Source of the DNA: Spiroplasma phoeniceum | Lineage (GTDB): Bacteria; Bacillota_I; Bacilli_A; Mycoplasmatales; Mycoplasmataceae | NCBI GenBank assembly: GCA_026239495.1 | Contig: CP110830.1 | Location: 744,001 to 808,000, forward strand | DNA length: 64,000 nucleotides | Reading direction: 5' to 3' | Part shown: positions 1,707 to 33,577 of the stretch, in pieces | Layout: the number at the start of each line of letters is the position of its first letter | How positions within the stretch are numbered: the first letter of the stretch is position 1 | The notes under the pieces: model-generated | What the model was told of the DNA's origin: nothing | What the model saw: only the letters and a program-made list of their open reading frames with translations | Databases searched by the model: none | Made by a program: the position numbers and the translations under genes

Positions 1707-1841
1707 TTTAATTTTGTAGAAAACTCTTGATATTTATAAAAAACCTTGATTTTATTGACTTTTTACTAAATTACTATTTTTGCAAAAACCTTTATTTGAT
1801 AAGGGTTTTTGACTCCATCAAGAGTTTTCTACAAAATTAAA
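1707..1841. repeat. 135-nt unit bounded by perfect 25-bp inverted repeats (copy 1)
   Basis: Arms 1707-1731 and 1817-1841 are exact reverse complements. Inside is a smaller stem (AAAAACC / GGGTTTTT). A related unit with decayed arms lies at 60267-60401. This copy ends about 70 bases before an ISLre2-type transposase; the other has no transposase nearby. See findings. Confidence 0.8.
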
Positions 1842-1908
1842 ATATTTTTTTTTTGCATTTTTATTATTTTTGTGTTAATGTGTAGAACTAAGGAAAGAGG
1901 GTAAAAAA

Positions 1909-3249
1909 ATGATAAATATTGATAACATATTTTTTAAGAATTTTAATAATTTTTTAGATAAACAAAGTATTGAAATAATTCAACAAAATTTAGAAGATTG
2001 TGATGAATGAATTTTTAAAAATTATAAAATTAATGAAACTTTAAAAGAATTTAAAGATTATAAAGTAAAAGAAATAAAACCAAGAACATTAACTATTTTA
2101 AATGGGAAAATAACTTTTAAAAGAAGAAAATATTATAAAATTAATCCAGAAACAGTTAAAGAAGAATATATTTTTCCTTTGGATAAACTTTTAGTAATTA
2201 AAAAATGACAAAGAATAGATAATTCTGTTAAAGAAAAAATATTATCATTTATTGTTAATAAAAAAACATATCAAGATATTTTAGATACTATAGAACATGT
2301 AAAAATTTGTATAAAAACAATTTCAAATATTATGAAAAATGAAAAAACTGATAAAGAATATTATATTAATAAAACTGATAAAAAAATAAAGGTACCTCAT
2401 ACTTTATATATTCAAATTGATGGAACTTATTTAAAAATGTGAAATGAAAATAAAAAGGGGAAAGAAAAAATAAAAAAACATAGTATATTTTCAACTGTTC
2501 ATACTGGTTTTAATAAAACAAAATCAACTAAAAAAAGACCTGTAATTGCAAATAAATTAGGTGTTATAGAACTAGATAATATTCCAGAATATATTAAAAA
2601 AAATAGTAAATTAATTAATTTTGTTAGTAAATTACTTACATTAATTACCAGCTATTATGACATTAATGACAATATTGAATTTATGGTATTAGGAGATGGT
2701 GCACTTTGAATTAAAAATATGGTAAAATTTACTCAAGAATATTTTCCTAAAAATAAAGTACATTACACGATAGATAAATTTCACCTTACAAGTAGATTTA
2801 AAAAATTATATCCTTATCAAAGTAAAAACAAAGAAAACAGAGAAACATACCATAAAGCAGTCGATTATTTTTTTAATGGTAAATATGAAGAATTATTAGA
2901 ACGCGTAGAAAACAGGGATTCTTTTATAAAAGAATCAAAAATGAAATTCTTAAAAGAGACAATTAAATTAATTAAAAATAATGAAGAAAGTGTCAGAAAT
3001 CAAACATTATGAAATAATATTGGTTGTCATATTGAGGGTGATATATCACATTACTGTAAGGGTGTTTTGGTTAAAAAAGCAACTTATCATGAAAAAACTA
3101 TTAAAAATAAATTAAATACTAGTATGATGAATTTTAAAAATAAAATTAATTTATTTAATACTAATGAACCATTAGAAGAAAATAGAATTAATTATTTAGT
3201 TAATAATTTTGTAAATAATAGTTTACAATCAAACTTATATTTTTATTAA
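1909..3249 (+). CDS. ISLre2/UPF0236-family transposase
   Basis: 446 residues, open from ATG to TAA when TGA is Trp. Family hallmarks are visible: an IQIDGTYLKMW segment mid-protein and the GDGALWIK motif about 60 residues later, followed by the Y.IDKFHL motif. A purine-rich RBS (AGGAAAGAGGG) precedes the ATG. The last ~70 residues differ from the copy at 4082-5403: the GRGAKIY segment seen there is missing here and replaced by unrelated Lys/Asn-rich sequence, so activity is uncertain. Family membership is from motifs. Confidence 0.8.
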
Positions 3250-3398
3250 TTTTATCTAAATAAATTAAATAACTTTAATAAACATGTATTTTTGTCGTGG
3301 AAAAATTTAAAAATAATGAAAAAATATATTGACAACAAAATTAAAAGTAATACAATTTAATTAAGTAATTGTCATATTATTCCACAATTTCTAAGATA

Positions 3399-23954: not shown

Positions 23955-24204
23955 CGGAAGCTAAATCTAAAATATCGTTAATTTTGTAATGTTGCATATA
24001 TGAATCAATAACATCTCACTTGTCTTTAAATAAATTTAATTACATTTTATATCATTATAAACATTGCAAATCATAATGCTTTTTATGATGTGAAATACGA
24101 CAATTAATAGGTTGACAATTAAATCAATCAAAAGATGTTTTTATTTCATTTCAAGTTTTATTAATATATTTACTTTTATATTCTGTAATTTTTTAATTCT
24201 CCTT
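23947..24204 (-). pseudogene. Conserved phage protein (homologue of 32576-32860), broken
   Basis: Closely similar to the intact 94-residue protein at 32576-32860 (TSFDWFNCQPINCRISHHKKHYDLQC, positions split by conserved Cys and His). It has lost its ATG (ATT in place), carries two TAA codons mid-gene, and its penultimate Trp codon region has become TAA. Confidence 0.6.
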
Positions 24205-24214
24205 TTTAACTCGC

Positions 24215-24242
24215 TGGCACTCACTCCCAAGTGAAAGTGCCA
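24215..24242. other. Hairpin (TGGCACT/AGTGCCA)
   Basis: Perfect 7-bp stem at the edge of a GC-rich non-coding island, just upstream of the early gene at 24204. Confidence 0.6.
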
Positions 24243-24275
24243 AAGAGAGAATTAGTTATATAAGTATTTACTACG

Positions 24276-24308
24276 GCCATCCGCTTCACTGGGGGGGTGA
24301 ACGATGGC
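24276..24308. other. Conserved hairpin (GCCATC/GATGGC)
   Basis: GCCATC pairs with GATGGC, with an inner TTCAC/GTGAA stem and a G-rich loop. The counterpart at 32972-33006 lies in the same place relative to the homologous gene, with the same outer stem but different inner bases. Confidence 0.7.
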
Positions 24309-24706
24309 GGCATGTTAATTGTTTGAATGTTGAATAATCCACAGTTGTTTTTTTACGCCAGAGATTTTTCTCTCTCTTCATTCACAACATTTCAGGTCAA
24401 AGCGTTCAGTTTTTAAAATAAATTCACTTGCACTTTGAAGAGTCTAGTGCTGGCTTTGTAGTTTGTAAAACCGATGCCACTTCTAAGAAGCAATATCTAT
24501 TGCAAATTTATTTACAAAGTGGCCATATCAATATTTATTGTCGTTTGATGTTGAACTCGCACTTATCACGATTATCGCAAGTTAGCGCGTCTATTATTTC
24601 CGGACTGATTACCGCTGGGCTAGACCGCCTATGTGGAAAAAAACACTTAGTTATTTATAAAATAACCGTTCCATTCCGTATTAAGTTGTTTTGTAAAATC
24701 AAAGTT
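24309..24706. other. GC-elevated non-coding island
   Basis: Clearly richer in G+C than all surroundings. No convincing gene on either strand: the open frame at 24428-24742 has no RBS or family features. Together with the adjacent hairpins this may be a phage replication origin or a structured RNA. See findings. Confidence 0.5.
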
Positions 24707-24916
24707 TTAAAATCCAATTTCATAATCAAAGATAATTTTTGAATTTTCCATTTTATGATAAAATTGCTGTTCTGTTTTATCTTTTACTTTGTTCAATAAA
24801 TATTTGTTTTTTTCACAAGTTCATAAAACTTTATTTGATAAAAATTATTCGGTAATGAATGATACTTTTTTATAACAATCATTAACATCACAAATTTTTT
24901 GTTGTTTAATTATCAT
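24707..24916 (-). pseudogene. Small phage early protein, one stop
   Basis: Strong RBS (AAAAGGAGGTGATG). MIIKQQKICDVNDCYKKV... about 69 codons with paired Cys residues (CDVNDC, later WTC) and one TAA near 24840. First gene of the early block after the terminator. Function unknown. Confidence 0.5.
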
Positions 24917-24949: not shown

Positions 24950-24980
24950 AAAAAACAACCCTAACAAGAGTTGTTTTTTT
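24950..24980. terminator. Bidirectional terminator at phage block edge
   Basis: A 10-bp stem AAAAAACAAC/GTTGTTTTTT. It is followed by TTCATCGTACA, which also follows the equivalent terminator at 33532-33560. Confidence 0.7.
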
Positions 24981-25009
24981 CGAGCTTCATCGTACATTTA
25001 TACAAATTA

Positions 25010-32575: not shown

Positions 32576-32860
32576 TTAATTTATTTGTTTTATTTTTTTC
32601 TCAATTTGTAATATTTTTCAACCATCTGTAGCCAAATATAAAATATCATTAATTTTGTAATGTTGCATATATGAGTTAATAACATCTCATTTATCTTTAA
32701 ATAAATTTAAGTACATTTTTTGTCCTTCTAAACATTGCAAATCATAATGATTTTTATGATGTGAAATACGACAATTAACAGGCTGACAATTAACTCAATC
32801 AAATGATGTTGTTATTTCATTTCAATTTTTATTTATATATTTACTTTTATATTTTTGCAT
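32576..32860 (-). CDS. Conserved phage protein, 94 residues
   Basis: Intact: MQKYKSKYINKNWNEI..., with two Cys (NCQPVNC), a His pair (ISHHKNH) and another Cys, a possible metal site. RBS AAAGAAAGAAA precedes the ATG. It is the first gene after the hairpin/GC island and overlaps the resolvase start. Its homologue at 23947-24204 holds the same position in the other phage block. No named family recognised. Confidence 0.6.
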
Positions 32861-32971
32861 AATATTTTATTTCTTTCTTTTTATTTTTTTAAATAAACAG
32901 AAAATCAATTTGTTGGTTAATATTTTTATATTTAGTAAGAATATTTGTATTTTGATTTAATTATCTTAATT

Positions 32972-33006
32972 CGCCATCCACCCCACTTTGTGGGTGAGTG
33001 ATGGCG
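32972..33006. other. Conserved hairpin (CGCCATC/GATGGCG)
   Basis: 7-bp outer stem plus an ACCC-CAC/GTGGGT inner stem. Counterpart of 24276-24308. Confidence 0.7.
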
Positions 33007-33361
33007 ATAATAAAATTCTATATTTAAACAGAGCTTATCCCCTACGGAAGTAAAACAAATTTACCCAGTTATTAATTACGCTTCATACATCCCTAGACAA
33101 CTTAATATAAATAAAATAACCTTTTGGAGTTCCAACCCTCTTTTTTTAGTGTCCGATATTGTTTTTTTGGTTTAACATCACTCTTTTTATGAAAACAAGC
33201 AAAAAACAAGCGCTCTGACATTTCGCAAGTGATTAATCTTGCAGAGAATTAAAGAAATAAATAGGAGAATAAATCCAGTCGCTTTTACACTTTCTTTAAG
33301 ACTTTGTGCCATAGATGGGTTATCCATCTTTAAGAATTAAAAAATATTAAGTTTTAGGGGC
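33007..33361. other. GC-elevated non-coding island, second copy position
   Basis: Richer in G+C than its surroundings, without a credible gene on either strand. It lies between the conserved hairpin and a long inverted repeat. The bases are mostly not alignable to 24309-24706 by eye, though the position is equivalent. Confidence 0.45.
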
Positions 33362-33500
33362 TGCATTATTAATTGGATAATATCTTTATTTAAAAGGAAA
33401 TTTATAAAAATATCCTTTATTTTGTGCAGTGAAAACAGAATAATATCTATTTTTATGATAAAAATTCTAAATTTAAAGATACTATCCGATGAATAATGCA
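33362..33500. repeat. Long imperfect inverted repeat, ~30-bp arms
   Basis: Arms 33362-33392 and 33468-33500 (both starting TGCATTATT when read inward) enclose about 75 bases that contain a smaller stem (AAAGGA...TCCTTT). No gene. Confidence 0.65.
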
Positions 33501-33531
33501 AATAAATTTATTTTTTTTAATATAAAAATAA

Positions 33532-33560
33532 AAAAAACAAACTCACAATAATTGTTTTTT
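33532..33560. terminator. Bidirectional terminator at phage block edge
   Basis: AAAAAACAA pairs with TTGTTTTTT; TTCATCGTACA follows, as at 24950-24980. Confidence 0.65.
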
Positions 33561-33577
33561 GACGGTTCATCGTACAG

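Follow-up and report, generated by a model that had tools for sequence, protein, structure and literature searches.

Two GC-rich islands in the early regions of Spiroplasma phage elements very probably encode real structured RNAs, termed here RNA-A and RNA-B. The pattern of base pairing points to an RNA product of the phage's early strand; this signal is clear in RNA-B and weaker in RNA-A. Considered as a whole, the data are best explained by a structured RNA from this strand together with RNA-started replication, an explanation that falls somewhat short of an even chance.

Location and copies of RNA-A

The source genome is a 2.18-Mb Spiroplasma genome in one contig, and the window analysed here is its 64,000-nucleotide stretch from 744001 to 808000; coordinates below are those of the window. 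Read along the minus strand, which is the phage strand, the element starts with the prophage end and a terminator-like repeat, continues with an 80-aa first gene (gene 1) and the GC-rich island, and then enters the early genes, which include RecT or ERF, SSB, and a protein named RuvC-like by its depositors. RNA-A is a large conserved structure between gene 1 and the early operon, at 24210..24675 (minus strand; ~470 nt, with approximate limits and unmapped ends). Covariance models find ~28 family A copies of the island at 24215-24706 in the genome. The G+C content is 0.37-0.39 over 24200-24650 and ~0.20 in the flanks on both sides, in line with the contrast to the surroundings that an earlier note on this DNA had described; the second island is milder, at 0.29-0.30 against ~0.20. 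High G+C within an AT-rich genome is a usual mark of structured RNA.

Several parts of RNA-A can be placed on the minus strand. The conserved core, matched by covariance model R2, spans 24354-24574. The hairpin HP1 (24275..24310; stem GGCCATCCGCTTCAC...GTGAACGATGGCGG) has the outer stem GCCA(T)C/GATGGC that is common to RNA-B. A second strong hairpin, HP2 (24210..24250; consensus TCGCTTTGGCACTTTCAC/GTGAGTGCCAGCGA), lies immediately 5' to the ribosome-binding site that serves the following early gene. The window copy of this locus is decayed, and intact relatives exist. Gene 1 (24681..24916, minus strand), which has 80 aa in phages and no Pfam or PHROG match, carries an in-frame stop here; this is the stretch that had been read, correctly, as a small gene or decay. 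The next gene is broken, leaving the 5' part of a homologue of a shared 94-aa early gene at 24064..24204 (minus strand).

Island A matches Spiroplasma phage MaM-2019a, a 19-kb dsDNA phage of S. poulsonii, at ~82-85% DNA identity, and this phage alone among 50,697 phage records. In its three deposits (OL689226, OL689227 and OL689230) RNA-A is carried at the same position as in the window, with the 80-aa first gene on one side and the early RecT/SSB operon on the other. There the region is either unannotated or called hypothetical proteins, and no RNA is recognised. A first guess, that the hairpin was an SpV1 origin or packaging hairpin, was dropped as there is no similarity to SpV1-type plectrovirus records.

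RNA-B and its relation to RNA-A

The second element carries, in the region of 32860, an RNA of ~580 nt whose sequence is unrelated to RNA-A and of which covariance models find 33 copies in the genome. Its main domain (32916..33352, minus strand; ~437 nt) has a long-range closing stem, with 17 pairs counted, and contains the core matched by model R1 (33106-33301, minus strand). The 5' domain (33363..33499, minus strand) is a long imperfect stem of ~28 bp, GCATTATTCATCGGATAGTATCTTTA / TAAAGATATTATCCAATTAATAATGC, with a folding z-score of about -7 to -8 on either strand. The HP1 of RNA-B lies at 32971..33007 (minus strand; CGCCATCCACCCCAC...GTGGGTGAGTGATGGCG), and its inner stem is exchanged between copies: CACTCAC/GTGAGGTG, CCGCTCAC/GTGAAGCGG, and a wholly different one in the copy L130. 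The paired hairpins of the earlier note, with the same outer stem GCCATC/GATGGC and differing inner stems, are thus present at both loci.

HP1 and its flanks are alike in the two RNAs, and the remainder is different. Kinship beyond HP1 was rejected, as model R1 finds no RNA-A copy. Both RNAs precede the same early gene, which in the second element is an intact frame of 94 aa (32576..32860, minus strand); the proposed homology of the early genes therefore holds, with the reservation that the window copy below 24204 is a decayed one. Family A shows local module exchange as well, its copies differing in an upstream domain and an optional insert.

Of 60 genomes from the host family, the same 8, which represent eight related species of a single genus, hold RNA-A and RNA-B; in a class-wide sample of 149 genomes the family A model has no match outside the source genome. 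In IMG/VR, one contig carries RNA-A and two carry RNA-B. Island B has no match among the 50,697 phage records, and among named organisms a 22-nt motif of RNA-B is found in S. phoeniceum and S. poulsonii. Two proteins link RNA-B elements (L158:104-8837 and L156) to MaM-2019a: one of 408 aa, in which the C-terminal ~96 residues match the capsid protein of that phage (up to 87%), and another that shares 93% identity with a portion of a MaM-2019a gene (L002:6165-6953). These elements, in which a terminase is not recognised, are possibly a phage satellite or a sister phage.

Evidence for conserved structure

In RNA-A, 94.3% of cells are paired over 44 sequences, as compared to 34-43% in slid controls, in which one strand is shifted by 1-3 columns. 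RNA-B has 123 pairs over 25 sequences, with 96.8% of cells paired and 47-54% in the slid controls. The earlier proposal that changed but still paired bases reflect a functional structure is borne out by cells altered on both sides. In 20 family A members outside the model seed there are 52 such cells, as compared to 17.6+-2.9 in shuffles (0/500) and 18.4+-6.6 under a tree-based null in which the tree and each column's count of changes are preserved (0/300); the alignment of these members was fitted to the model and hence leans towards it, a bias that the slid and tree controls remove only partly. In RNA-B the corresponding values are 31 cells against 9.8+-3.3 in shuffles (0/500), with 1/300 under the tree null. 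In the 44-sequence A set, which includes decayed copies, pairing clearly exceeds the tree null, and double changes do so by a less clear margin (11/300). Pairing is supported by the tree-aware null in all three alignments.

Individual helices illustrate these exchanges. In RNA-A, P1 changes from GTCGT/ACGAC to GTGGT/ACCAC, and P2 from AAATAAATTTGC/GTGAATTTATTT to AATTAAATTTGC/GTAAATTTAATT. P3 is found as GCATT/GGTGC, GCACT/AGTGC, GCATT/GATGC, and GCACC/GGTGC, while the free-running hairpin P4 occurs as AGAGAG..CTCTCT, AGACATATATATGTCT, and GTGTATATACAC. In the most divergent A member (L200), the strands of P2 and P3 are entirely different yet complementary. An RNA-B hairpin changes from GCAAG/CTTGC to GCGGG/CCCGC. 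The structure therefore extends beyond the single hairpin of the earlier note, which was right that a structure exists and set its extent too small for the ~470 nt and ~580 nt found here.

Methods that do not start from specified helices give weaker results. Single-sequence folding z-scores are -2.3 for A and -1.9 for the main domain of B, the long stem of B being the exception; RNAalifold on the gappy alignment A1 gives a poor global structure; and a scan for covariation between all pairs of columns, judged by a tree-based null, yields no pair at E<0.05. This last outcome is attributed to swapped modules and two deep clades, which dominate the columns, and specified helices were tested instead.

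One alternative would be decayed protein-coding sequence with incidental hairpins. Short peptide-like stretches do occur in single copies, and the prophages of this genome are full of pseudogenes. Against this, six-frame translation of many copies of island A meets stops and frameshifts in all frames, with none open across copies, MaM-2019a records included; variability shows no three-base periodicity; and the changes are compensatory. Two CDS annotated in MaM-2019a (984-1163 of OL689226, or L001; 737-862 of OL689227, or L003) fall inside RNA-A, and their frame is broken in other copies; such hypothetical proteins are probably not genes. Island B likewise holds no gene, as the earlier note had stated for both islands. 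That note named lack of covariation, or a coding frame conserved across homologues, as grounds for abandoning its proposal; covariation is present and no frame is conserved. The coding explanation therefore retains a very small probability.

Strand of the folded product

A further alternative to RNA is a structure formed in DNA (a cruciform, or a single-strand initiation or packaging site). The hairpins are strong on both strands, and the strand test for A is weak in full alignments, where G-U and A-C cells number 27:21 and 78:65, as compared to 27:5 in hand-picked helices. In RNA-B, by comparison, G-U cells are three times as frequent as A-C cells (72:25), which makes RNA from the phage strand the most likely folded molecule. 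In P2 of RNA-A, tandem U-G/G-U pairs persist (30 and 43 of 44 sequences); read from the opposite strand, the same positions would hold A-C mismatches. A DNA-level structure is accordingly considered improbable, and for the packaging signal that the earlier note had listed among its options nothing speaks specifically.

Prophage end

The string TTCATCGTACA is found at 24986 (24986-24996) and at 33566 (33566-33576), as previously described. Similarity between copies ends ~7 nt past it in 30+ loci, with unrelated flanks beyond, and it is therefore assigned to the end of the prophage, outside the structure. In the window, the two ends comprise an AT-flanked inverted repeat, resembling a two-way terminator, plus TTCATCGTACA (24950..24996), and an inverted repeat plus TTCATCGTACA (33526..33576), neither assigned to a strand. 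The bidirectional terminator proposed earlier belongs to this end as well; its stem with A- and T-runs is visible by eye at the junction, and a strict consensus scan does not score it.

The ~7 nt after TTCATCGTACA are type-specific (ttatac, ggacgcc, cgatgcc, tgatac) and form the border of the inserted elements. As the flanks vary among copies, insertion seems untargeted. The three MaM-2019a phages each carry a different transposase (UPF0236, IS30-type, and IS285-type) in the same place between terminase and early region; the transposase sites are L001:17758-19098, L002:17566-18741, L003:17549-18886, and, in the window, 1834-3293. It is as if the transposases serve as exchangeable integrases.

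Possible role in replication

The best-fitting function is tentatively that of an RNA-based origin or an early control element. Transcription of the early strand through the island would yield RNA-A with the early operon directly after it, and the second element would carry the unrelated RNA-B at the corresponding place. The phages may replicate as circles without a recognisable initiator protein, the early transcript folding into an RNA that would prime or license replication at this site, in the manner of ColE1 RNA II or of RNA-based mycobacteriophage prophage origins. The AT-rich stretch just 3' of HP1 is a candidate melting or priming site. RNA-A and RNA-B may thus be replication origins, a possibility that stays below the level of the probable.

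This possibility is ranked first on the following grounds: no initiator family is found, a circular relative exists, a third phage type has a repeat array at the locus, and mycobacteriophages offer a precedent. Pfam and PHROG searches of the early proteins recognise RecT/ERF, SSB, and the RuvC-like protein and no initiator, helicase, or primase family, a result to be read as absence of evidence, as several small early proteins match nothing. The circular relative is pSciBLH13-2 (NZ_CP047430.1), a 22.3-kb S. citri plasmid that is collinear with MaM-2019a over most of its length and carries RNA-A. It has no ORF of at least 100 aa recognisable as a plasmid Rep or Par gene, and as its long genes are broken in the deposit, a broken rep gene might be missed. 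The record is that of a MaM-2019a-like phage genome with an IS30-type transposase and many broken late genes.

Two other phage-bearing S. citri plasmids represent the third phage type (L161:2613-3330, L162:29617-30351). Here, right after the same first gene stands a 25-nt stretch that RNA-B also has, around GATGGATAACTCATCTATGGCAC in one of its hairpins; the match is exact in one plasmid and off by one base in the second. A tandem AT-rich array comes next (in L161, an 81-bp unit x3.6). Arrays of AT-rich tandem repeats are a typical feature of origins, and this one could instead be a partition site. With RNA-A, RNA-B, and the array at the same locus, the locus looks like an exchangeable replication module. 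A broader proposition would treat RNA-A, RNA-B, and an iteron-like array as interchangeable replication modules at one locus of dsDNA Spiroplasma phages and a related element type, with the two RNAs as protein-free origins; it is doubtful.

The GC-skew check suggested by the earlier note reveals no clean origin/terminus switch along the phage genomes. With late genes read on one strand, each of the three MaM-2019a genomes (L001, L002, L003) shows two sign changes in third-position GC skew, which is positive near 4-9 kb and 15.6-17.5 kb and negative at 10.9-15.4 kb. No conserved DnaA box is present, one near-match in A being altered in many copies.

A second possibility, unlikely in our estimate, would be cis-acting control of the early operon, either by antitermination or attenuation in an HK022 put-like or EAR-like leader, or by translational or processing elements of the downstream gene. 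In favour of this, the early operon follows closely on both RNAs in the same orientation, HP2 of A stops immediately ahead of the ribosome-binding site for the gene that follows, stems resembling terminators occur before the RNA, and NSRO-P1 has an 11-of-12 promoter match at position 29-56. On the other side, RNA-A follows gene 1 rather than standing at a transcript start, promoter and terminator scans are at chance level overall, and there is no Rfam match. The known put and EAR elements are far smaller than RNA-A and RNA-B.

Under any of these functions, the two families are large structured RNAs absent from Rfam and highly repeated non-coding elements (~28 and 33 copies), and their presence would account for stretches that lack annotation, or carry a wrong one, in many citri-clade genomes and in the MaM-2019a deposits. 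Given the deep natural variation among copies, both structure and function are open to direct tests either way. If the origin proposal is true, they are RNA-based replicons in Mollicutes phages, testable through their covarying structures; RNAs that drive replication would offer a rare view of RNA-started phage replication and, in a genus for which genetic tools are scarce, a compact module for building vectors.

Comparison with known systems

A search of the literature found no paper describing RNA-A or RNA-B, which is weak evidence given that most subscription journals lay outside its scope. In Rfam 15 (including GOLLD, ROOL, OLE, and phi29 pRNA), no family matches at the gathering threshold over the whole window, and sub-threshold matches appear only in permissive searches.

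GOLLD and ROOL offer a likeness in kind, which raises the alternative that RNA-A and RNA-B are trans-acting large structural RNAs, abundant in infection, with no direct role in starting replication. Their size (~470-580 nt), multi-helix architecture with covariation, phage location, and swapping of peripheral modules resemble those large, elaborately folded phage-encoded RNAs and their variable modules (PMC12286853). In contrast to GOLLD and ROOL, which are reported frequently near tRNA islands, they sit in the early region directly upstream of early genes, the 64-kb window contains no tRNA, and neither sequence nor structure matches such a family in Rfam. This alternative is also judged unlikely, and it ranks equal with the early leader, after the RNA-based origin.

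For the RNA-based origin, the likeness to ColE1 RNA II is one of proposed logic only, a structured transcript that would prime replication by host enzymes; unlike that system, no RNA I-type counter-transcript is identified for RNA-A or RNA-B, and there is no Rfam match. A precedent is the set of RNA-based prophage origins of mycobacteriophages RedRock, Alma, and LadyBird (PMC7157519). A parABS cassette of the kind that adjoins those Wetzel-type origins is not seen here, with no ParA-like ORF in MaM-2019a or pSciBLH13-2, and conserved secondary structure is not described for the mycobacteriophage origins in the portions of that paper drawn on here. Shared features, within the same portions, are a few hundred bases of non-coding phage DNA (with transcription observed in the mycobacteriophages), the lack of a repA (here, of a RepA-like initiator gene among the early proteins searched), and a circular extrachromosomal prophage form, represented here by the single record of pSciBLH13-2.
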